A stretch of DNA of 64,000 nucleotides, from contig NC_011026.1 of NCBI RefSeq assembly GCF_000020525.1, positions 310,001 to 374,000 on the forward strand, written 5' to 3'. Positions 11,121-21,383 of the stretch are shown here, in pieces. The notes beneath the pieces are model-generated. The model was given only the letters and a program-made list of their open reading frames with translations. It had not been told where the DNA came from and ran no database searches. The translations under genes and the position numbers were made by a program. Origin of the DNA: Chloroherpeton thalassium ATCC 35110. Its GTDB lineage: Bacteria > Bacteroidota > Chlorobiia > Chlorobiales > Chloroherpetonaceae. Every line of letters begins with the position of its first letter. The stretch's first letter is position 1.

Positions 11121-11876
11121 TTATTTGCGCCCGCCGCGTTCGAGCAGAATGTCGGCGGTTTGTGCGATGATTTCTGCGAACGCTTCCGAGCCGACCGGCA
11201 CGGACGAATGCCGCGCCGCAATCAACGATTTGAACACATGATTTTCCATGAAGCGCCCGTCGCCGCCGGATTCGCGGTGATACAGCTTGACGCACTCGTC
11301 GGACAGCTCGGGAATGACGGTTCGGCAGAGGCTGGCCGCGTCGCCGAGCGTGAGCTTGCGCAGCGAGGCCGGGACTTTCACGCGATTGACGATGTACTCG
11401 TAATCGCCGCGCAGCGATTGCAGGCGCGAACGAAACCGATCGATGCCGACATACAAAATGCCGATGCCCGCGCGGTCGTTGAGTTGGCGCACCTCGTCCA
11501 GCGTGCTTGGGCTTAAATGCTCGGCCTCGTCCAAAATGAGCAGCCGCGCCGAATGGTGAAGCTTCGTGACGAGTTCGCGCATCATGCGATGCACCGTGCC
11601 TTTCGGCTCGATGTGGCAGGCTTCGCAGAGGTCGACGAAGACTTCGCGCGTGGAATAGCGATGATGCGCCCGAATCACGATGGCGGAGTCGTCGCGCCGC
11701 TTGTATTCATTGACGGCGGTGGTTTTGCCGACGCCGCTCGGCCCCGTCACCCGCCCAATTTCGCCGTAAAGGTGACACAGGCGGGCGGCCTCGTAGAACT
11801 TTCGCCAAACCGATGTCTCCGTAAAAGCAAACCGCGCTCGCGGCTCTTGGATAATTTCTTGATGGCTTGTCTTCAT
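11121..11876 (-). CDS. MuB-type transposition ATPase (target-DNA activator)
   Basis: The start at 11876 (MKTSHQEIIQEPRARFAF) is used; the longer frame from 12011 runs into repeat sequence and encodes repeat-derived residues. The 251-residue AAA+ ATPase has Walker A GPSGVGKT (residues 45-52), Walker B LLILDEAEHL (about 112-121, D116-E117) and a sensor-like GIGILYVGIDRFRSRL. MuB/TniB proteins polymerise on target DNA and deliver it to the transposase. The gene is bracketed by 125-bp inverted repeats, so it could be flipped by recombination. In Mu, B follows A directly; here they are 635 bases apart. Confidence 0.88.
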   Translation of the reverse strand: MKTSHQEIIQEPRARFAFTETSVWRKFYEAARLCHLYGEIGRVTGPSGVGKTTAVNEYKRRDDSAIVIRAHHRYSTREVFVDLCEACHIEPKGTVHRMMRELVTKLHHSARLLILDEAEHLSPSTLDEVRQLNDRAGIGILYVGIDRFRSRLQSLRGDYEYIVNRVKVPASLRKLTLGDAASLCRTVIPELSDECVKLYHRESGGDGRFMENHVFKSLIAARHSSVPVGSEAFAEIIAQTADILLERGGRK

Positions 11877-11915
11877 TTTTTTCAAAAATATTGGTTTCCT
11901 TACCGTTAGGTTTTT

Positions 11916-12436
11916 GCGGTCTTCGTCTCCGCCGGAGACCGACAAAAAAAGAATTATGTCATTCTGAGGCTCTTGCCGAAGAATCCACAATGTCACGAAT
12001 GGATGCTTCACTGACTCGTTCCGAGTCGTTCAGCATGACAACCACACATGTCATTCTGAAGGGCTAAAGCACATGTCATTCTGAGGCTCTTGCCGAAGAA
12101 TCCAACCTCACCGGACACATGGATGCTTCACTGACTCGTTCCGAGTCGTTCAGCATGACAGAAAAAAATCATGTCATTCTGAGGCTCTTGCCGAAGAATC
12201 CAACCTCACCGGACACATGGATGCTTCGCGCTGCTCAGCATGACAGAAAAAAATCATGTCATTCTGAGGCTCTTGCCGAAGAATCCACAATGTCACGAAT
12301 GGATGCTTCACTGACTCGTTCCGAGTCGTTCAGCATGACAGAAAAAAATCATGTCATTCTGAGGCTCTTGCCGAAGAATCCACAATGTCACGAATGGATG
12401 CTTCACTGACTCGTTCCGAGTCGTTCAGCATGACAC
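11916..12436. repeat. Five copies of the ~84-89-bp dispersed repeat, including the inverted partner of 10968-11092
   Basis: Units running from ATGTCATTCTGAGGCTCTTGC to TTCAGCATGACA lie at about 11956-12040, 12073-12161, 12174-12244, 12255-12341 and 12352-12436. Copy 3 lacks most of the palindromic core (CGCTGCTCAGC replaces it). Copies 2 and 3 carry CAACCTCACCGGACAC in place of CACAATGTCACGAAT. Together with the leading GCGGTCTTCGTCTCCGCCGG block, 11916-12040 is the reverse complement of 10968-11092 with two differences. Frames through this array are not genes. Confidence 0.93.
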
Positions 12437-12445
12437 GCAGGTCAG

Positions 12446-12493
12446 CCCCTACGATTCCGGTTGTCTTGTAGGGGCGAACCTGTGTGTTCGCCC
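12446..12493. repeat. Double-hairpin intergenic repeat (TAGGGGCGAAC type)
   Basis: CCCCTAC (12446-12452) pairs with GTAGGGG (12468-12474), and the overlapping GGGCGAAC (12472-12479) pairs with GTTCGCCC (12486-12493). Short palindromic blocks of this type are scattered in intergenic DNA of many bacteria. It lies just after the MuA stop, between that gene and the repeat array. Confidence 0.75.
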
Positions 12494-12511
12494 GTGCATT
12501 AATCCTGCTGC

Positions 12512-14704
12512 TCATTCCTCGTCCTCCAAATCGCATTTGAAAATTGAATAGCGTTTTTTGGCGGGCGGCTCGTCGGTGGCGGGCGAAAAGCAGGCGATGT
12601 CGTGCGTGCCGGTTTTTCGCCATTCGCGCTCGCGGCTCAGCGCCTCGTCCATCGCCGTTTTGTGAATAATTTTCGCCGACCCGTTTTGCCCGATGGATTT
12701 GATCTTGCCCTGTTGCTTATCGTTTGCATGTTGCGCTTCGGCGGCGAGCGTTTCCGAAAGGCTTGCGCCCGCTTGCACGCCCGCCGATTGGTAGCGCAAA
12801 AGCGCTTCGGGCGAAACCTCAACGCCGTCGCCCGCCAGCGTTTTGAGCGTTTTTTTGACGCGCTTTTTGTGCGCCAGTTTTTCCCTAACGGTTTTTCGCT
12901 CAAGCCCGCTTTCGGCGAGCGCCGGGACGCGCCAGAAGCCGAGCGTGGCCGGGCCGAGATATTCGTCCGTTTCGGCGTCAAACACCCACGCTTCTTGCCA
13001 CGCCTTGAGCGAGCGGCGCAGATAAACCTTCGCGCCCGCGTGGCCGTCCATCCATTCGGCGTAATACCAATCGCCCAAAGCGGCATCCCTAACGCCGTTA
13101 CGCTTGATGGTCACTTCGCCCGAAATCCGATAGCGATACAGCCGCAGCGCGTCCTCTGTGACCCACTTGGCCGCCGCGCCGTCGTATTCCTCGCGCCACG
13201 CCGCCTCGCGCGAGCGCCCGCTCAGCACCTTGCCTTGCGATTTGATTTGGTGCAGCACCTCTTCAATGAAATAGCCGACAAGCGCCTCGCCGCGCTCAAA
13301 GTCAAGCTGCGCCTCCACGCGCTCGGGGCGCTCGAGCGGGTTGCCGCCCGTGTAGCCCGGCATGCCTTTGTCCATCCATTCTTTGAAAATGAGAAAATCG
13401 CGTTCGATAGGTTTGGTCTGCGCACCGTAAGGATTGGCAAAATGAACGCGAACGCCGAGCTGCGCAGTTAGGGAACGCGATTGGGTGCGTATATAATTAT
13501 AATCCGCCGCGTCCTGATTGGCGTAGTTCGGGCGAAAGCGTCGCCGCCCGCCCGCAAAATCCTTGACGCGATAATCCTTGCCATTGTCGATGATGATTTC
13601 CTCCGGCACGCCAATTTTTAAGCACGCCTCGCAAAAAGTTTCGATGACATGATCGGCGTTAGGATCTTCAAAATGTAGCGACCAAGAAATCCAATAACCG
13701 GTTTTGAAATCGCGCCAAACGGTAAGCCAAGGGCGGCGGGCGCGACCGTCGGCAAGCGCCCACGCCTGATCCAGCCGCCGATGATCGGAAACCCAAACCT
13801 TGCCCGCACGAATCGCCGAATAGTCGCGGCTGAGAAAATGCGCGTACTTGCGGTTGTAAGCTTCCTCTCCCTCACGGTGCAAACAAATCGCAGCCTCACC
13901 AATTTCCTTTTTCAACTTGCGCAAAAACGCGGCGCGGCTCGGAAATCTGCCCTGCCGAACGGCCTCAAAAAAGCCGTGTTCTTTGGCAAAACCGAGCGTG
14001 GCGGCAAAAACCGCCTCCAGCTTCGGCTGCGAGCGTTTTAAATAAGCCGATTTGAAAAATTCATACACCGGCGGCATGGCCTCGCCCCAGCAAGGATCGT
14101 CGATTTTTGACGTGCCTCGCAATTTTCCGTAACTGCCCAGCAGCCCCGAAAGACCTTCTTCGGCGAAAATTTTTCGCGCCCGCATGAGGCTCGGGTAGGA
14201 CGTTTTTTGCTCGGGATGCGCGGCGTTCCATTTTTGAATGGCCTCGCGAAGCCCGGCGCCCTTGAGGCCGTCCGTCGCCTGAAAAAGCAAGGCGTATTTG
14301 TCGGCCTTGCGGCGATTGTAATCGGCAGCTTGTTGATAGGAAAGCGCATCGAGGCGGCGGGTGTCGGCTTCGGCATCGTTAGGCGGCGTGTTCTCGCGCA
14401 GCCATTTTTCCCGCGCGCTCGCAGGCAAGGACGAGAGCGCGACGAACACGGGCTTGCGCTTGTCGGCCTCGTCGATGCGCGTGACAAAATTGCCCTTGCG
14501 AATTTTTTTCTGAACGGCTTGCTTCGAGCAGCCCAAAAGGTTGGCGACCTCCAAAACGGAAAGAAATACGTCCGATTCGGATAACGCTTGATTTTGCAAA
14601 CAGTTATCCGGCTCGACAACCGCCGTTTTCGGGTTGTCGAGTAAGTTGTCGATCGGTTGAACGAGGTCGACAACCTCAGCGCGAAGTTTCCGGGTCGCCG
14701 TCAT
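12512..14704 (-). CDS. MuA-type DDE transposase
   Basis: A 730-residue protein (MuA is 663). Order: N-terminal winged-helix segment with LSVLEVANLLGCSKQAVQKKI (about 48-68), an internal Ibeta/gamma-like DNA-binding region (120-300), the integrase-type catalytic core from about 300, and the beta-barrel plus C-terminal region. The catalytic triad can be placed: D307 (WVSDHRRLD), D373 (EIIIDNGKDY) and E434 (KPIERDFLIF), with spacing like MuA. It makes the strand transfer that drives replicative transposition with the neighbouring MuB ATPase. The acidic C-terminus (CDLEDEE) is the expected MuB/ClpX contact region. Confidence 0.95.
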   Translation of the reverse strand: MTATRKLRAEVVDLVQPIDNLLDNPKTAVVEPDNCLQNQALSESDVFLSVLEVANLLGCSKQAVQKKIRKGNFVTRIDEADKRKPVFVALSSLPASAREKWLRENTPPNDAEADTRRLDALSYQQAADYNRRKADKYALLFQATDGLKGAGLREAIQKWNAAHPEQKTSYPSLMRARKIFAEEGLSGLLGSYGKLRGTSKIDDPCWGEAMPPVYEFFKSAYLKRSQPKLEAVFAATLGFAKEHGFFEAVRQGRFPSRAAFLRKLKKEIGEAAICLHREGEEAYNRKYAHFLSRDYSAIRAGKVWVSDHRRLDQAWALADGRARRPWLTVWRDFKTGYWISWSLHFEDPNADHVIETFCEACLKIGVPEEIIIDNGKDYRVKDFAGGRRRFRPNYANQDAADYNYIRTQSRSLTAQLGVRVHFANPYGAQTKPIERDFLIFKEWMDKGMPGYTGGNPLERPERVEAQLDFERGEALVGYFIEEVLHQIKSQGKVLSGRSREAAWREEYDGAAAKWVTEDALRLYRYRISGEVTIKRNGVRDAALGDWYYAEWMDGHAGAKVYLRRSLKAWQEAWVFDAETDEYLGPATLGFWRVPALAESGLERKTVREKLAHKKRVKKTLKTLAGDGVEVSPEALLRYQSAGVQAGASLSETLAAEAQHANDKQQGKIKSIGQNGSAKIIHKTAMDEALSREREWRKTGTHDIACFSPATDEPPAKKRYSIFKCDLEDEE

Positions 14705-14706
14705 GG

Positions 14707-14949
14707 CTAAACCGCCTCCCGAAGGGCTTCGAATTGGCGGCGAGTTTCCTTGCGAGCGTTTGCAATTTCCACAAATCGCGCCTGCAAACGCGGGTTTCCG
14801 CGCCGGATGGACATTTTCACCGCGTCCGCCGTGACTTTTTTCTCCGTGATGCCGTTTTCTACCAGCCGCGCCGTCTCCTCTTCGGCGATTTCGGCGTAAA
14901 TGCCGCGAAACATTGAGCGCATAAAAGTGGTGTTCGCTCTTTTGCCCAT
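14707..14949 (-). CDS. Phage early protein at the Ner position, unknown
   Basis: An 80-residue basic protein, first gene of the early operon, ending 2 bases before the transposase ATG. It shows no Ner-like helix-turn-helix; a conserved-looking segment is TADAVKMSIRRGNPRLQARFVEIANARKE. By position it could be a small DNA-binding regulator or a transposition accessory factor. No family recognised. Confidence 0.65.
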   Translation of the reverse strand: MGKRANTTFMRSMFRGIYAEIAEEETARLVENGITEKKVTADAVKMSIRRGNPRLQARFVEIANARKETRRQFEALREAV

Positions 14950-14972
14950 GATTTATTCTTTTATTAGATTAC

Positions 14973-15009
14973 CGATATATTATGCTCACAATATATCGCT
15001 TAAGCGATA
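14973..15009. promoter_or_regulatory. Paired palindromic operators between repressor and early operon
   Basis: Two overlapping symmetric sites lie in the 91-base divergent gap: CGATATAT (14973-14980) inverted as ATATATCG (14991-14998) over 10 bases, and the 16-bp perfect palindrome TATCGCTTAAGCGATA (14994-15009). The region is very AT-rich. This is the expected place for the repressor to control both its own promoter and the early promoter; the sites share the TATCG half-site. Confidence 0.75.
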
Positions 15010-15040
15010 AATAGCAAAATAAAAATATCATTTTTCTGAT

Positions 15041-15853
15041 ATGGAAGAGATGATTGGAGATCGTTTCAAAGCGGTCAGAAAAGCGCTGATGCTCAATCAG
15101 GATGCGTTTTCAAAGGATATTGGCATTTCGCAAAGCTCGCTTTCGGAAATCGAGAACGGAAAATTTTCGCCGGGCAGCGACATTATTTTATCGCTTTGCC
15201 GATATTTCAATATCGACAGCAACTGGCTGCTGACGGGAACAGGCAAGATGTTTCTGGAAAAAAAGCCCGAATCGGAAAATATTTCGGAGGCGGGCGACGA
15301 GCCGAGCGCGGCGGACTGGCAGCTTCAGGCCGAGCAAGCCGCAAAAACGGCAGCAAGCCGCAGCGAAAGCGAGGCGCTGGCCGGCGATGTGGCGGCGCTG
15401 AAAAAGCAGGTCAATGAGCTTTTCGGGCTGGTGCGCGGCAGGATGGATGTGCTGGAAGACGCGATGGTTGAAATTCCGGTGTTTATGCACCGTGTGTCGG
15501 CGGGACCGGCGGTGGCGTCCTCATCGGAAATTGAGGAATATATTAAGTTACCGACCGTGCTGCTGAAGCATCCGAAGCGCAGCTACGCGGTGCGGGCGAG
15601 CGGCAACAGCATGGTCGGCGCGGGCATCCATTCCGGTGACCTTTTGATTGTGGATCAGGAAGCGGCCATCAAGCACAAGTGCATCGTGATTGCGAGCATC
15701 AACGGCGAGCAGACGGTCAAGCGCCTGCTGATCGAAGACGGCGAGCTGGTGCTTGCGCCGGAAAACAGCCACTACCAATCAACGCCCATCACCAAAGAGA
15801 TGAATTTCAGCATTTTGGGCGTGGTAATGCACATCATTCGCACGGTTTACTAA
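15041..15853 (+). CDS. Phage repressor: HTH plus S24 (LexA-like) autocleavage domain
   Basis: A 270-residue protein. Residues 7-60 are an XRE-type helix-turn-helix (NQDAFSKDIGISQSSLSEIENGKFSPG). A coiled-coil-like linker follows (about 95-140). The C-terminal S24 peptidase domain shows a likely scissile Ala154-Gly155 (RVSAGPAV), nucleophile Ser190 (ASGNSMVGAG) and Lys227 (GEQTVKRLL). It should keep the prophage silent and be cleaved after RecA activation. This differs from the Mu c repressor, which has no such peptidase domain. ATG at 15050 is an alternative start; neither has a clear ribosome site. Confidence 0.93.
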   Translation: MEEMIGDRFKAVRKALMLNQDAFSKDIGISQSSLSEIENGKFSPGSDIILSLCRYFNIDSNWLLTGTGKMFLEKKPESENISEAGDEPSAADWQLQAEQAAKTAASRSESEALAGDVAALKKQVNELFGLVRGRMDVLEDAMVEIPVFMHRVSAGPAVASSSEIEEYIKLPTVLLKHPKRSYAVRASGNSMVGAGIHSGDLLIVDQEAAIKHKCIVIASINGEQTVKRLLIEDGELVLAPENSHYQSTPITKEMNFSILGVVMHIIRTVY

Positions 15854-16170: not shown

Positions 16171-17322
16171 CTAAGCAAACGTAACTTCTAAGTTGCCGTC
16201 TTCAAATTTTGCACTTTCAGTTTTACGACCGATAAGCACGTTTGGCAAAATGATATTTTTTCTAAAGTTATTGACTTCAATCAACAACTCATCACCTTTC
16301 AAGTTCATTTGAACACGGTCGATTTCAACGTTCGGCAAGTATAACCGAAGCATATATTTTCCATCTGTTTTTTCAACAGACTGTGTCAATTGCTCATGGT
16401 ATAAAACATCGGCAGGGTTGATTCCATCAAAAAGCTCGGTACTTAACATGTGTAACTTATCCGCACCAATTACTTCTTGACTATGAAGCCTTGCTGGGAA
16501 TATTGGTAAAGGATAGAAGCAATTATTAATCTTATCCAAATATTTCTTTTGTTGCTCAACCATTGCCAAAATATAAGGATCAGTAGATTTGTGCATGATA
16601 ACCTTATTCACAACTACGGCATCCAACTTATACCCAAACAAATTCAGATAGGTTTGTGCTCGTAAAGCTTCTTTAAGCACCATATTCTCAGGATTGACAA
16701 CAATTCGGTAAGTTGTGATATTTGGGTCCATCAGAATTTTATGCAAATCCTGCATGTTCTCGCCAACTTGTGGTAAAAGCTTGAACACGTTTTTCTTTGG
16801 CATCCACTTCTGAATTAACGGCGCTGCAAGCCCCATCGCCCGAACATGCCAACTGGCAATTTTATCGGAATACCATCTGTATGATTCAGGCATTGCCAAC
16901 AAGCGCATGGTTTCACCTGTCGGAGCTGCATCCACCACAATAGCGTCATATTCACCTGATTTTGCTGCCAGCCAAATGTGGCGAAGACTAATCATCTCTT
17001 CCATGCCAGGCATGATAGCAAGTTCATCAGCTACAATTTCAGAAGCACCTTCTTGCATTAAAATGGTTGAGAAATAGGCATGAAATTCTTCCCAGTGTTC
17101 TCTGATCTCAGCTAAGATATTAACCTCTAATGCAAATAGATTTTTCTCAATTTCTATAGGTTTAGCTCCTAATTCAACGCCTAACGCATCAGCAAGACTA
17201 TGAGCAACGTCGGTACTCAAAATCAAAACTTTTTTGCCACTTCTTGCGATTGATACTGCTGTTGCTGAAGAAATAGATGTTTTACCTACTCCCCCTTTGC
17301 CAAGATATATTATAACTCGCAT
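16171..17322 (-). CDS. ArsA/Get3-family ATPase with C-terminal HSP20-like domain (copy 1)
   Basis: A 383-residue deviant-Walker ATPase: GKGGVGKTS at residues 8-16, switch I in [13 protein letters not shown], switch II in [12 protein letters not shown]. After about residue 310 a beta-sandwich tail ([29 protein letters not shown] ... GNLEVTFA) matches the HSP20-like domain found at the end of many bacterial ArsA homologues. It has a single cysteine (NNCFYP) and none at the arsenite-binding positions, so arsenite transport is unlikely. Position in a run with csmC and csmA suggests a role in chlorosome protein handling or envelope insertion (inference). It is the last gene before a terminator. 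Confidence 0.85.
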
Positions 17323-17365
17323 AAGTACTTCACTCCTTTTTTCGTGGAGACGTCAATTTGTTTAG

Positions 17366-18721
17366 TTAACCGTTATCTGACTTTACTTTAATTTTTTTGC
17401 GTCGGCTTCTCGAACTTGAATCATCATCAGAAGCCTCTTCTTTTTTACTGGACTGCCAAATGCTATCGCTATTATCCTTTATAGGCTTCTTTGCTTCTGA
17501 GCTTTTTTCCGTTTTAGCGCTACCATCTTCGTATACTTTCCCACCAAACGAATCTTTTCTTTCATATTCATTTTTTCGCCTATTTCCAGGCATCGGTGGT
17601 GTTGGGACAACGGTTTTTACAAATTTAGATGCTGCACCAAACAAACCATCGCTTTTTACCGCCGCTTGAATGACATCAATAAGAAAATCCTGCGTCTGTT
17701 TGTTGCTTGATACATTTTGAAGTAATTCATTCAACGCATTGACTGATTCAACAAAATTATCGGGAAGTTTTTGAAAATTCTCTGGAATTTTTCGCAAATC
17801 ATGTTTGAATTGCTCTTTATATTCTTCAGGTATGGATGCGATCAATTCTTTGACCATTTCACTCATTTGCTTCATTGTAGCCATATCTATTTCTGGTGGC
17901 CGCTGTGCTCCATTCGGGGACATGTTCTGAGGATTTTGCCCAAATGGACGGCTACTATTAAATGGCATGCTTCCTGGATATTGCTGATTTCCAAACATAC
18001 GACTACCTTGCTGCGCAGCACCTCCTTGATAACCAGAAAATGAATGGCGTGCTTTAAACTGCTCTAACAGATCTTGCCCATATCCTATATGGGAATTATT
18101 CGATTGATCTTGAAAATTTTGCACATACCCCATTCCAGGAATACCCATTGATGACTGCGGTGGAATTGAAGTTCCTACAGCTTCATTTCCTTCATTTTGA
18201 TACGGGGCTAATTCAAAAACTTTAGGAGGGCAAGAATCTATTCCTGTAGTGTATATTTTGTCTGCAATTTCCTGAGGAATTTCTTCTAAATAATTTTTCC
18301 CTAAATGCTCTTCAAGTACTGTTTCTATAAGCACTTGAAGCAAAACTATCTTCTCCGCTTCCTCTACGGGAACAAGGTCAAAAACCAAATATATGGATTC
18401 TTTCGCTTTCCGATTTAGGACAATTTCTACTGTTGAAGTGTTCTTATCGCGCTGCTTCGCCGTTATTGAAACGGTGCCAAGATCAAACCGATCTAAATAA
18501 TCTTTATCAGCACCTCTCGCCCAAAGATATAGCGACTTGTCTGAAAAAATGAGATAATCTTGAAAAGCCACGCTACCAATTTGCTCATTTTTGGACTCAT
18601 AGAAAAAGCCATCAAAAGCAGCTATTGGTCGTTCCCCTAACTGAAGTAAATTTCTACGAAAAAACTCTTGTATATGAGCCTCTTCGGCGTGCTTAGCCGC
18701 ATAAAGCTTAATAGTCTCCAT
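17366..18721 (-). CDS. PH-like-domain protein with low-complexity middle, chlorosome cluster, unknown
   Basis: A 451-residue protein. Residues about 25-135 have the strand pattern of a bacterial PH-like domain (LGERPIAAFDGFFYE, DYLIFSDKSLYLWARG, STVEIVLNRK, IYLVFDLV). Residues 170-275 are Gly/Gln/Asn/Pro/Ser/Met-rich and probably disordered. Residues 280-370 are helical (MATMKQMSEMVKELIASIP, FVESVNALNELLQNV). The tail from 375 is highly charged and ends in basic residues. No signal peptide. It lies between csmA and an ArsA-family gene on the same strand, so a chlorosome biogenesis or membrane-docking role is plausible but unproven. Confidence 0.75.
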   Translation of the reverse strand: METIKLYAAKHAEEAHIQEFFRRNLLQLGERPIAAFDGFFYESKNEQIGSVAFQDYLIFSDKSLYLWARGADKDYLDRFDLGTVSITAKQRDKNTSTVEIVLNRKAKESIYLVFDLVPVEEAEKIVLLQVLIETVLEEHLGKNYLEEIPQEIADKIYTTGIDSCPPKVFELAPYQNEGNEAVGTSIPPQSSMGIPGMGYVQNFQDQSNNSHIGYGQDLLEQFKARHSFSGYQGGAAQQGSRMFGNQQYPGSMPFNSSRPFGQNPQNMSPNGAQRPPEIDMATMKQMSEMVKELIASIPEEYKEQFKHDLRKIPENFQKLPDNFVESVNALNELLQNVSSNKQTQDFLIDVIQAAVKSDGLFGAASKFVKTVVPTPPMPGNRRKNEYERKDSFGGKVYEDGSAKTEKSSEAKKPIKDNSDSIWQSSKKEEASDDDSSSRSRRKKIKVKSDNG

Positions 18722-18864
18722 TTTAACTAAACTTACTCCTAAACCACCTTATTATTGTAAGCGATATCAAGTACACTGTTTCCATCTCATATCTTGAATC
18801 ATAGCTGAAAGACTCAACCAATTTATAACGGCATTGCCCGACGGTTTCAAGTGAGGAATAAACA

Positions 18865-18899
18865 TTATAGGCAGCAATGCCTTACATCGCTGCCTATAA
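18865..18899 (-). terminator. Hairpin after csmA
   Basis: TTATAGGCAGC (18865-18875) pairs perfectly with GCTGCCTATAA (18889-18899), starting 12 bases after the csmA stop. On the minus strand the stem is followed only by a weak T-rich stretch, so it may be a partial terminator or an mRNA 3' stabiliser that lets csmA messages accumulate over the downstream genes. Confidence 0.65.
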
Positions 18900-18910
18900 G
18901 AAAAGCAAAT

Positions 18911-19156
18911 TTACTTAGCGAACTTTGATTCGATTTGCTTACCGTATTCACGAGATGGTGATGAGCCACGAAGTGAAGAACCACCTACACCACCGCCCAT
19001 GCTACCCCAAAGATTTTGGTTGAGGCGCAATGAACCTTGTGCTAATGATTCAACTGCTTTGCTAAAAGCATACCAGTGACCTTCAAACATGAGCTCAGAA
19101 ATGCGACCAATGCTGGAAAGCACCTCTGTAATTGCTCCTCCTCCTCCTACTGGCAT
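18911..19156 (-). CDS. csmA: Chlorosome baseplate protein CsmA precursor (bacteriochlorophyll a-binding)
   Basis: An 81-residue protein matching CsmA: GGGGAITEVLSSIGRISELM, then EGHW with His27 (the expected bacteriochlorophyll a ligand), SLRLNQN-WGSMGGG, then SLRGSSP and a C-terminal ESKFAK. CsmA forms the two-dimensional baseplate that passes energy from the chlorosome to the FMO protein or reaction centre. In Chlorobaculum the precursor loses about 20 C-terminal residues; a similar tail is present here, so processing is expected. A strong AAGGAGG site precedes the ATG. A hairpin follows the gene. This is the key taxonomic marker in the window. Confidence 0.97.
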   Translation of the reverse strand: MPVGGGGAITEVLSSIGRISELMFEGHWYAFSKAVESLAQGSLRLNQNLWGSMGGGVGGSSLRGSSPSREYGKQIESKFAK

Positions 19157-19343
19157 ATTTCCTCCTTATTTTATGTTTAGGATTTGATTGATAGAAAACG
19201 CGACCAAAAAAATGGCCTCTTTAAAATAACAACACTTTACTTACTATTTTACTTATCTGTTCCTATTTTTTGTTTCACACCTAAAATTTAGCCTGCGCAT
19301 CGTTTCTCTTCAAAAAAAGACATCAACTCAAATGCCTTGATCA

Positions 19344-19556
19344 TTACGAGTTGTCACTTTTCTTAGCCCGTTCTTGCACTTTTTGAGCGCCTCCTGGACT
19401 ATTAAAAGCGATAATATCATTAGCAACGGGAAGCACTGAATTCATTGTATTCGAAACACCTTGCAAAATCGTATCTAATGCTCCAAACACACAAAAGGAA
19501 ATTTTTTCAGACATTTCCATACTTTGGAACTCGCCTATAAATTCATTTTTATCCAT
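19344..19556 (-). CDS. Short CsmC/CsmD-like protein, possible chlorosome envelope component
   Basis: A 70-residue frame from ATG 19556; the longer frame uses a TTG at 19583, and neither start has a clear ribosome site. The segment FIGEFQSMEMSEKISFCVFG lines up by eye with LRTQFKELPLTDRIAFIAEA of CsmC next door, including F-(K/Q), the acidic/basic pair and I-(A/S)-F; both then continue with Ser/Gly/Asn-rich amphipathic stretches. It begins 30 bases after the csmC stop, so the two are likely cotranscribed. This looks like a truncated or diverged csmC duplicate. Confidence 0.65.
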   Translation of the reverse strand: MDKNEFIGEFQSMEMSEKISFCVFGALDTILQGVSNTMNSVLPVANDIIAFNSPGGAQKVQERAKKSDNS

Positions 19557-19586
19557 CGCAAGACATTTATTTTCAATGTTCAAAAA

Positions 19587-20012
19587 CTACTTTTTAGGAG
19601 AAGTTACTTCAGCAGCCGTTTTTTGAATCGTTCCTGTTACATTTTTAACGACTTCTGATGCCTGTGAAGTCACATCACCAAGACCTTTTGCAATTCCACC
19701 TGTTGCATCATCTACACCCTTAGCCACATCTTTATAGATAGTTCCTGCTGCTTTACCTGCATCTTTGACGGTAATAGCAACACGTTCTACCGTTTGGCTA
19801 ACAACGTTATTTGAGCTATTTGAAAGACCAGTTGCCTTAATGATAGAGTCAACTGACGATCCGATATTTTCAAAAACACCTCCAAAAAGCCCCATTGAAT
19901 CACTTAAAGCGGACTGCCCCGTCATGACGGTTGCTTCTGCAATAAATGCAATACGGTCAGTTAAAGGAAGCTCTTTAAATTGAGTACGGAGCTTATCGTA
20001 TGCTTCTGTCAT
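19587..20012 (-). CDS. csmC: Chlorosome envelope protein C-like (CsmC/CsmD family)
   Basis: A 141-residue protein without signal peptide. N-terminal FKELPLTDRIAFIAEATVMTG matches the conserved first half of CsmC/CsmD, and the Ser/Gly/Val/Thr-rich C-terminal half (AGKAAGTIYKDVAKGVDDATGGI and similar) is amphipathic and repetitive as in this family. CsmC is a surface protein of the chlorosome envelope and in Chlorobium is cotranscribed with csmA, as the order here suggests. AAGGAGG lies just before the ATG, with a small hairpin (GCTGC/GCAGC at 20025-20046) overlapping the ribosome site region. Confidence 0.85.
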   Translation of the reverse strand: MTEAYDKLRTQFKELPLTDRIAFIAEATVMTGQSALSDSMGLFGGVFENIGSSVDSIIKATGLSNSSNNVVSQTVERVAITVKDAGKAAGTIYKDVAKGVDDATGGIAKGLGDVTSQASEVVKNVTGTIQKTAAEVTSPKK

Positions 20013-20174
20013 TTTTTCCTCCTTGCTGCATTAAAAATTAAGCAGCTTATTTTATTTAAAGTTTTTACTTTTTATGACTTAAAGAAAATTAACAAATAAA
20101 AACTCTTTTACCAACTATAAAATCATATACAGAAACACTTTACAAAGAATCTAATCCAAACAACAGCACACGAA

Positions 20175-21383
20175 TTATCCCCGACCATTTCCTACTGGGG
20201 ACGCCTGTGGCGTCACTGGAAATGGAATAGAAAGCCATTTTCCTTTGAAAGCCGCATCCCCTGGTTCAACACCAGTTAGGGTGAGAGGCAAGGTCATTAC
20301 TTTTCTTTGATTTCCAATCTGGATAAACAACTCATCTCCAGATACCCAAACATCAATATCATCAGGATTTGCAAACTGTAATTTAATTTGCACCTCATAG
20401 CTATCATCATGACGAATAAATCTCATCGGATCTTCATGATATAGCATTTGCGATGGATCTGTATCGCCGTACAAATCATTTGCCAACCGATTTAAGGCGT
20501 CCAAACCAACCACTTCATTGTCATACATTGGAAGCGTTTTAATTGGCAGCGGCTCAAAAGCACTGTTAATTTCATTCAAATACCGCTTCTGAACAGCTTT
20601 CCACTTTTCAAGGTAGCCACTATCTTCATCCTCTGAGAGCAACTTATTTACAGTGACCATATCAACCTTAAATCCGTATAAGTTTAAATAAGTCAAAGCT
20701 CTCATCGTTTCTTTAATAGCCATCTTTTCAGGGTTCATCACCAGTCTTACAGAAGACAAGTTTTGATCCGTCAAAATCTCACGAATTCCATCTAACTCTT
20801 CATAAACTTGATCTACCGAATCAAAAACTTCTTGAGAAGGAACATAATTTGATAGCTTATCAGACATTCTTGAGAGCGGTCTGGCAAGTGGACGAACAAT
20901 AAATTTATCGACGTTACGAATCATTTTGATTCCCCATGCCAACGTATCAGGCAGAGATAACAAGCGGAGCGTTTCTCCAGTTGGCGCGGTATCAAGAACC
21001 AACGCATCATACTGACCCGACATTTTATACCGTTTCACTCTTACAAGCGAGAATAGCTCTTCCATTCCAGGCAAAACAGTCATTTCATCAGCCATCACGT
21101 TTGGCATTCCTTGAGCCGCAAACAAGTTTGCATAGTACTTCTGAACCACATGCCAGTTTTCTTTCAAATCAACGTAAGCATTTACCTCTATAGCAGATAA
21201 ATTATCCTTAATTTTTGTTGGCTCGGCAGAAAGCGACACGTTAAACGAGTCTGAAAGGCTGTGTGCAGGGTCGGTTGAAAGCACAAGTGTCCGCATACCG
21301 AGTTCAGAGAGTCTGAGAGCGGTCGCTGCTGCAATACTAGTCTTTCCTACACCGCCTTTACCTGTAAAAGTGATAATACGCAT
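20175..21383 (-). CDS. ArsA/Get3-family ATPase with C-terminal HSP20-like domain (copy 2)
   Basis: A 402-residue protein with GKGGVGKTS at residues 8-16, switch I STDPAHSLSDSFNV, switch II DTAPTGETLRLL, and a C-terminal beta-sandwich (VQIKLQFANPDDIDVWVSGDELFIQ ...) of the ArsA HSP20-like type. The whole protein contains no cysteine, so neither arsenite binding nor a Get3-type CxxC zinc dimer is possible. It lies 162 bases upstream of csmC on the same strand and is a paralogue of the ATPase at the other end of the cluster. It may act as a targeting or assembly ATPase for chlorosome proteins (inference). Confidence 0.86.
   Translation of the reverse strand: MRIITFTGKGGVGKTSIAAATALRLSELGMRTLVLSTDPAHSLSDSFNVSLSAEPTKIKDNLSAIEVNAYVDLKENWHVVQKYYANLFAAQGMPNVMADEMTVLPGMEELFSLVRVKRYKMSGQYDALVLDTAPTGETLRLLSLPDTLAWGIKMIRNVDKFIVRPLARPLSRMSDKLSNYVPSQEVFDSVDQVYEELDGIREILTDQNLSSVRLVMNPEKMAIKETMRALTYLNLYGFKVDMVTVNKLLSEDEDSGYLEKWKAVQKRYLNEINSAFEPLPIKTLPMYDNEVVGLDALNRLANDLYGDTDPSQMLYHEDPMRFIRHDDSYEVQIKLQFANPDDIDVWVSGDELFIQIGNQRKVMTLPLTLTGVEPGDAAFKGKWLSIPFPVTPQASPVGNGRG

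Follow-up and report, generated by a model that had tools for sequence, protein, structure and literature searches.

A Get3d/PH-like gene block around csmA in Chloroherpeton thalassium as a candidate chlorosome assembly module

The 64,000-nucleotide stretch of the Chloroherpeton thalassium ATCC 35110 genome analysed here (NC_011026.1, positions 310,001 to 374,000; hereafter the window) carries the chlorosome genes csmC and csmA within a block of six genes, which also encodes two ATPases of the Get3/ArsA type and a protein with a PH-like domain. An earlier note, made from the sequence of the window alone, had described six same-strand genes followed by a terminator at this place, and all of them are present on the minus strand between 21383 and 16171. 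In the order of transcription they are Get3d_A, csmC, a short gene, csmA, the PH-like gene and Get3d_B, followed by the terminator. The features are as follows (window coordinates).

20175..21383, minus strand: Get3d_A, Get3/ArsA-type ATPase of 402 amino acids, first gene of the block; PF02374 369 bits, PF17886 69.5 bits, TIGR00345 285 bits
20220..20408, minus strand: alpha-crystallin (HSP20-like) domain at the C-terminus of Get3d_A, residues 326-388; PF17886
19587..20012, minus strand: csmC, chlorosome envelope protein C, 141 amino acids; PF11098 250 bits, E 1e-74 (cut-off 26.3); AGGAGG ribosome-binding site upstream
19344..19556, minus strand: short gene, putative distant CsmC/CsmD-motif relative, 70 amino acids from its ATG; homologues at the same place in Chlorobiales families f1 and f3; profile match to the N-terminus of CsmC
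18911..19156, minus strand: csmA, baseplate protein, 81 amino acids; PF02043 109 bits, E 9e-32 (cut-off 25)
18865..18899, minus strand: hairpin directly 3' of csmA, 16 pairs with a weak T tail, from folding; the related loci that were folded also have a hairpin there
17366..18721, minus strand: PH-like protein, 451 amino acids, with PH domain, disordered middle, helical segment and basic tail; AlphaFold, Foldseek and orthologues at csmA loci
18206..18721, minus strand: PH-like domain, residues 1-172; AlphaFold model of seven strands and a helix, pLDDT mostly >90
17384..17392, minus strand: I-K-V of the tail motif RRKKIKVK, residues 444-446 of the PH-like protein; motif enriched in orthologue tails
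16171..17322, minus strand: Get3d_B, second Get3/ArsA-type ATPase, 383 amino acids; PF02374 279 bits, PF17886 78 bits; ribosome-binding site AAAGGAGTG
16177..16365, minus strand: alpha-crystallin domain at the C-terminus of Get3d_B, residues 320-382; PF17886
16098..16143, minus strand: intrinsic terminator 3' of Get3d_B, a 20-pair hairpin followed by TTTTCTTTT, a T run

csmA is the sole PF02043 gene of the C. thalassium genome, and 43 nucleotides separate the PH-like gene from Get3d_B. The short gene, for which an alternative TTG start at 19583 would give 79 amino acids, had been called CsmC/D-like. The gene is indeed present, and a profile match (hhalign E 8e-6, probability 84%), in which the alignment is restricted to the N-terminal part, suggests a distant kinship with CsmC. 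It was found in families f1 and f3 of the Chlorobiales; in the Chlorobiaceae csmA loci examined, no copy was detected.

Both ATPases match ArsA_ATPase (PF02374) and, at the C-terminus, ArsA_HSP20 (PF17886) above cut-off, and both pass the cut-off of the TRC40/GET3/ArsA subfamily (TIGR00345, 244-285 bits). Against the NosAFP equivalog NF050088 each scores 151 bits at a cut-off of 325, as related proteins of a different equivalog. They are single-half proteins of 383-402 amino acids with P-loop, switch I, switch II and A-loop kept (GKGGVGKT, STDPAHSL and DTAPTGET, plus the A-loop, in Get3d_A). Cysteines number 0-1 per ATPase, with none in Get3d_A, and no C..C of a CxxC zinc motif occurs in either sequence. 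By sequence, archaeal Get3 and ArsA1 rank first among the solved structures, followed by other Get3 proteins (E 1e-51 for archaeal Get3 3zq6 versus 3e-25 for Nostoc Get3d 3igf). The earlier identification as two ArsA-family ATPases can accordingly be narrowed from the Get3/ArsA type to the Get3d type (single half, alpha-crystallin domain, no CxxC), and by sequence we assign the two "ArsA" genes to Get3d-type ATPases, not to arsenite pumps. An arsenite pump was rejected on account of the single-half proteins, the 0-1 cysteines and scores of 110-115 bits in arsenical pump models with a 650-bit cut-off. Export of arsenite or another anion, with an accidental position beside the csm genes, is what the automatic family name ArsA_ATPase would suggest; it is exceedingly improbable in view of these same properties, of the linkage kept in two phyla and of the surroundings, where no ars transport or regulator genes (arsB/arsR) were seen near or in the block.

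Get3d proteins are known from plants, cyanobacteria and green bacteria; they bind tail-anchored clients and hydrolyse ATP, and green sulfur and green nonsulfur proteins have been assigned to them with several copies per genome (PMC10248533). Their alpha-crystallin domain occupies the Get4 site of cytosolic Get3 and has no assigned role, and partners have been predicted for them (PMC10248533). As in the Get3d of Nostoc (3igf/8egk) and Arabidopsis (At1g26090, 8elf; PMC10248533), the block ATPases combine a Get3 fold with a C-terminal alpha-crystallin domain and lack CxxC. They differ from the published Get3d in keeping switch I, switch II and A-loop, in being nearer to archaeal Get3 and in standing beside csmA and a PH-domain partner; the Get3d paper itself contains no mention of chlorosomes (PMC10248533).

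The search for csmA covered 395 Bacteroidota genomes (98 Chlorobiales and 297 others); several genomes are fragmented metagenome-assembled genomes, and outside the window genes were called mechanically. Of the 98 Chlorobiales, 96 have a PF02043 match, and no other genome of this sample does. Two ArsA genes flank csmA wherever the contig permits (ArsA positions in 22 genomes), and the order Get3d_A, csmC, csmA, PH-like, Get3d_B is present in 20 Chlorobiales loci from four families. A further 53 Chlorobiales csmA loci, some from the same genomes, agree, with genes missing only at contig ends. This conserved core consists of structural proteins, Get3d and the PH-like protein and holds no lipid or pigment enzymes, while the genes outside it vary between families. 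The earlier note had asked whether the ATPases and the PH-like gene stay beside the csm genes elsewhere in the Chlorobiota. This is so in each of the four Chlorobiales families seen, and the same Get3d-csmA-PH-like linkage extends beyond that question to the Chloroflexota. For Chloracidobacterium, of a third phylum with chlorosomes (Acidobacteriota), a published account names csmA and no genes around it.

In the Chloroflexales, the csmA loci were recovered with a Chloroflexus CsmA query, which they matched at 72-99% identity. In 27 of 27 loci the gene directly upstream of csmA encodes a Get3d that is about 50% identical to Get3d_A. PH-like genes, two in tandem, lie 3' of csmA in 25 of the 27, the other two being cut by contig ends. 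The PH-like pair is followed, as a rule, by a Get3d of GKGGTGKT type and then by a Get3d without P-loop. Two genomes with a very divergent csmA, which are probably of the Chlorohelix kind, show the order Get3d, csmA, PH-like, PH-like. Because the same order recurs at every examined csmA locus of sufficient completeness, in two phyla, while the flanks differ between the families inspected, a chance arrangement can be excluded. The Get3d relative without P-loop in the Chloroflexales csmA clusters (L094:14147-15247) also lacks switch I and switch II and keeps the alpha-crystallin domain, i.e., it is a pseudo-ATPase. In both Chloroflexus (L094:15262-16269) and a Chlorobiales f3 genome (L087:10892-11884), the GKGGTGKT-type Get3d gene has an alpha/beta hydrolase gene downstream of it.

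The PH-like domain profile (A5) matches 89 of the 98 Chlorobiales and none of the 297 non-Chlorobiales Bacteroidota. As a rule a genome has a single match, which lies at the csmA locus; the few csmA-positive Chlorobiales without a match are all multi-contig draft genomes. Among 60 Chloroflexales, it matches exactly the 21 csmA-bearing genomes. Strong matches to type II reaction-centre genes occur in 42 of these 60, namely the 21 with csmA and another 21 without, and none of the 21 csmA-less phototrophs has the PH-like gene. In the latter the reaction-centre reading frame is mostly fused, with about 650 amino acids, which we take to be the arrangement of Roseiflexus. Roseiflexus is a phototroph without chlorosomes (PMC6180586). 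The PH-like gene tracks csmA and the chlorosome, not photosynthesis, and the unit of Get3d and PH-like protein is therefore very likely chlorosome-specific.

No Pfam model matched the PH-like family. For the PH-like proteins of both phyla, AlphaFold and Foldseek predict a PH fold with a seven-strand barrel and a C-terminal helix; for the protein of the window, the best Foldseek match to a PH domain has an E of 7e-5. Profile comparison (hhalign E 1.4e-9 and 1.5e-13) shows that the PH-like proteins of one phylum are homologous to those of the other. The predicted structure agrees with the earlier description of a PH-like domain and a disordered middle; the tail is disordered as well. The PH fold is shared with bacterial PH domain proteins (e.g., 3dcx, 3hsa); unlike these, the PH-like protein has no Pfam match, carries a long disordered I-x-I tail and is limited, in the sets searched, to csmA genomes.

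These tails are rich in a basic motif, [RK]-(x)-[IV]-x-[VIL]-[RK], with 2.30 copies per protein against 0.09 in shuffled tails in the Chlorobiales, and 3.24 against 0.12 and 1.00 against 0.04 in the two Chloroflexales paralogues, an enrichment of about 25-fold over shuffles in both phyla. Examples are RRKKIKVK in the window and REIPLRRR and RRIAVR in Chloroflexus; about 5% of open reading frames in control loci carry the motif within their last 60 residues. Small heat-shock proteins dock on alpha-crystallin domains via a C-terminal I-x-I/V peptide. The peptide pattern is alike (for example, REIPLR in a PH-like protein of Chloroflexus and RTIPIT in small heat-shock proteins), and because of this resemblance the PH-like tail may bind the alpha-crystallin domain of Get3d, in which case docking would act in trans, from tail to ATPase. 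The short-gene homologues of family f3 (L054:9140-9481, L057:9103-9420, L062:7649-7990) have tails ending in IPVK, IPIK, ISIK or IPIR, akin to the motif of the PH-like tail.

Our phylogenetic analysis covered 60 sequences, in a tree that carries a long-branch warning. The csmA-linked Get3d_A of Chlorobiales, Chloroflexales and the Chlorohelix-like genomes form one clade (branch support 97/98), and the GKGGTGKT type represents a third Get3d class. Several Get3d classes are, as judged from this tree, common to both phyla, through common descent or transfer. Chlorobiaceae encode a further Get3d, which forms a separate clade, 3-4 kb away from csmE and on the other strand (L079:7883-13058, L080), with similar spacing in at least nine genomes. 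PF17886 was rejected as a phylogenetic marker of Get3d, as it is useless for this purpose, matching also other HSP20-like proteins (329 of the 395 genomes). Proteins resembling Get3d also occur in the csmA-less Bacteroidota family f34, and in Bacteroidota without csmA (L192 and L193; genomes G195 and G147) such proteins match ArsA_HSP20 strongly, so that this architecture extends beyond chlorosome bearers.

We posit that the block is a dedicated Get3d/PH-protein module for chlorosome assembly, and we hold the chances for and against this reading to be balanced. The two Get3d ATPases would receive the new, aggregation-prone CsmA, CsmC and short CsmC-like protein and, depending on ATP, hold them in solution. 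The PH-like protein would be the organelle-specific partner, its PH domain binding to the surface of the envelope or baseplate during growth and the flexible tail docking, through the repeated basic I-x-I/V motifs, on the alpha-crystallin domain of Get3d. This docking would trigger release of the client into the lipid monolayer. The observed basis of the module is the identity of the genes, their conserved order in two phyla, the strict co-occurrence of PH-like protein and csmA, and the enrichment of the motif; the identity of the clients, the membrane binding of the PH domain, the docking of tail to crystallin domain and the release step are what we infer. The chlorosome biogenesis unit proposed in the earlier note has thus gained a conserved linkage and a PH-like gene that tracks csmA, and its central step, delivery of CsmA and CsmC to the monolayer by the ATPases, continues to be an inference.

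Several observations weigh against such a module. In Kyte-Doolittle windows of 19 residues (KD-19), the maximum is 0.84 for CsmA and 0.98 for CsmC. Because neither has a tail anchor or a strong transmembrane segment, they would be unusual, non-standard Get3 clients; nor does any other block protein qualify as a classical tail-anchor client, all KD-19 windows being <=1.4. The Get3-type insert is present in Get3d_A and Get3d_B, where it is moderately hydrophobic (maximal KD-19 about 0.5). The tail of the C. thalassium PH-like protein carries a single copy of the motif, and the strict motif is missing from 13 of 71 Chlorobiales PH-like tails. The tree adds that Get3d_B groups with a Chloroflexales Get3d encoded away from csmA and that the Get3d_A clade also holds a Chlorobiales paralogue unlinked to csmA. 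At least three further Get3d paralogues lie away from csmA in Chlorobiales genomes. Because such unlinked paralogues exist, one of them within the Get3d_A clade, not every Get3d is chlorosome-specific. The paralogues elsewhere in the genomes, like the Get3d-like proteins of the csmA-less family f34, would also suit general housekeeping chaperones that are merely co-regulated with csmA, leaving the PH-like protein alone as chlorosome-specific. We consider this unlikely, as the adjacency is kept over two phyla and in all loci while flanks differ, and as the third Get3d lies 3-4 kb from csmE in the Chlorobiaceae genomes described above.

The cargo might also be other than protein. Phospholipid-like density was seen in the chamber of a Get3d crystal (PMC10248533), alpha/beta hydrolases and a methyltransferase-like gene lie further along the Chloroflexus cluster, and published maps place bchU and bchK inside the csm cluster. 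On these grounds, what Get3d and the PH-like protein handle in chlorosome growth could be lipids or pigments (galactolipid, bacteriochlorophyll, quinone), with protein clients being secondary. Published Get3d proteins, however, also bind tail-anchored protein, and the conserved Chlorobiales core is free of lipid and pigment enzymes, so that a lipid or pigment role seems an unlikely one. Still less probable is a function in positioning or segregation, in which ATPases like ParA, MinD or McdA would space chlorosomes along the membrane and the PH-like protein would be the organelle adaptor. An adaptor with a disordered region suits that layout, and Get3/ArsA and ParA/MinD share the deviant Walker A (weak matches). 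The block ATPases nevertheless score 244-285 bits for TIGR00345 against <45 bits for MinD or ParA models, and they possess a Get3-type insert and an alpha-crystallin domain, which would be unexpected in a positioning ATPase.

A more far-reaching form of the protein-assembly reading, which we regard as possible yet doubtful, is a GET-like targeting pathway for a lipid-monolayer organelle, with Get3d loading clients that are not tail-anchored and passing them on at the chlorosome via a PH receptor, the repeated I-x-I motifs of whose tail would bind the alpha-crystallin domain. As in GET/TRC40 (Get3 with Get4/5 and Get1/2), a cytosolic ATPase is proposed to pass hydrophobic proteins to a membrane surface via partners. 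The block differs in that it contains no Get1/2 or Get4/5 genes and its clients have no tail anchors; the target would be a lipid monolayer and the partner the PH-like protein. If true, this pathway would be, after CsmA, a second chlorosome machinery shared by Chlorobiota and Chloroflexota and would explain the purpose of the Get3d alpha-crystallin domain. Get3-type targeting, so far a matter of bilayers, would then include an organelle with a monolayer.

As a gene arrangement, the "one block" of the earlier note stands; it does not prove a single transcript, since a T-run terminator follows csmA in most Chlorobiaceae loci inspected. A hairpin is present at this place in the related loci that were folded, with a long T run behind it in most of those Chlorobiaceae loci, and the one in C. 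thalassium is likely a partial terminator or messenger RNA (mRNA) stabiliser. Because a hairpin directly follows csmA, the six genes are probably not one simple transcript. Its likely effect would be an abundant csmCA transcript and a less abundant downstream pair. In the csmCA cluster of Chlorobium and Chlorobaculum, csmC likewise precedes csmA, and mono- and dicistronic mRNA has been reported (Chung and Bryant, summarised in PMC12214013); the flanking Get3d and PH-like genes are left untreated in the accessible part of that source. csmA is reported to be essential in a species related to Chlorobaculum tepidum, an organism with established genetic tools (PMC12214013).

In Chloroflexus aurantiacus, csmA is clustered with bchU, bchK, csmM, csmN and csmP, and the accessible part of the report does not name the neighbouring Get3d and PH-like genes as chlorosome genes (PMC3150298). 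No paper joining chlorosomes to Get3 was found in the accessible literature, and in the two accessible chlorosome texts that mention it, ArsA appears only as a taxonomic indel marker or in arsenite export; an earlier remark on arsA beside csmA in the older literature is possible. CsmA has been called the sole chlorosome protein with cross-phylum sequence similarity, and budding and aggregation models of chlorosome biogenesis are still being weighed (2022 Chloroflexus study, PMC9316378). Beside CsmA, the block adds a second protein set common to Chlorobiota and Chloroflexota, with a PH-like member limited to csmA genomes. It further offers candidate clients and a candidate partner for Get3d, and its genes are concrete targets for deletion and pull-down in the study of chlorosome biogenesis.

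Beside the terminator end of the block, a Mu-like element occupies 11121-15853, with a TniB/MuB-like AAA protein, a Mu-type transposase of 730 amino acids and an S24/HTH repressor. A repeat-rich stretch lies at 11867-12409, where open reading frames repeat the peptide CHSEALAEESTMSRMDASLTRSESFSMT.

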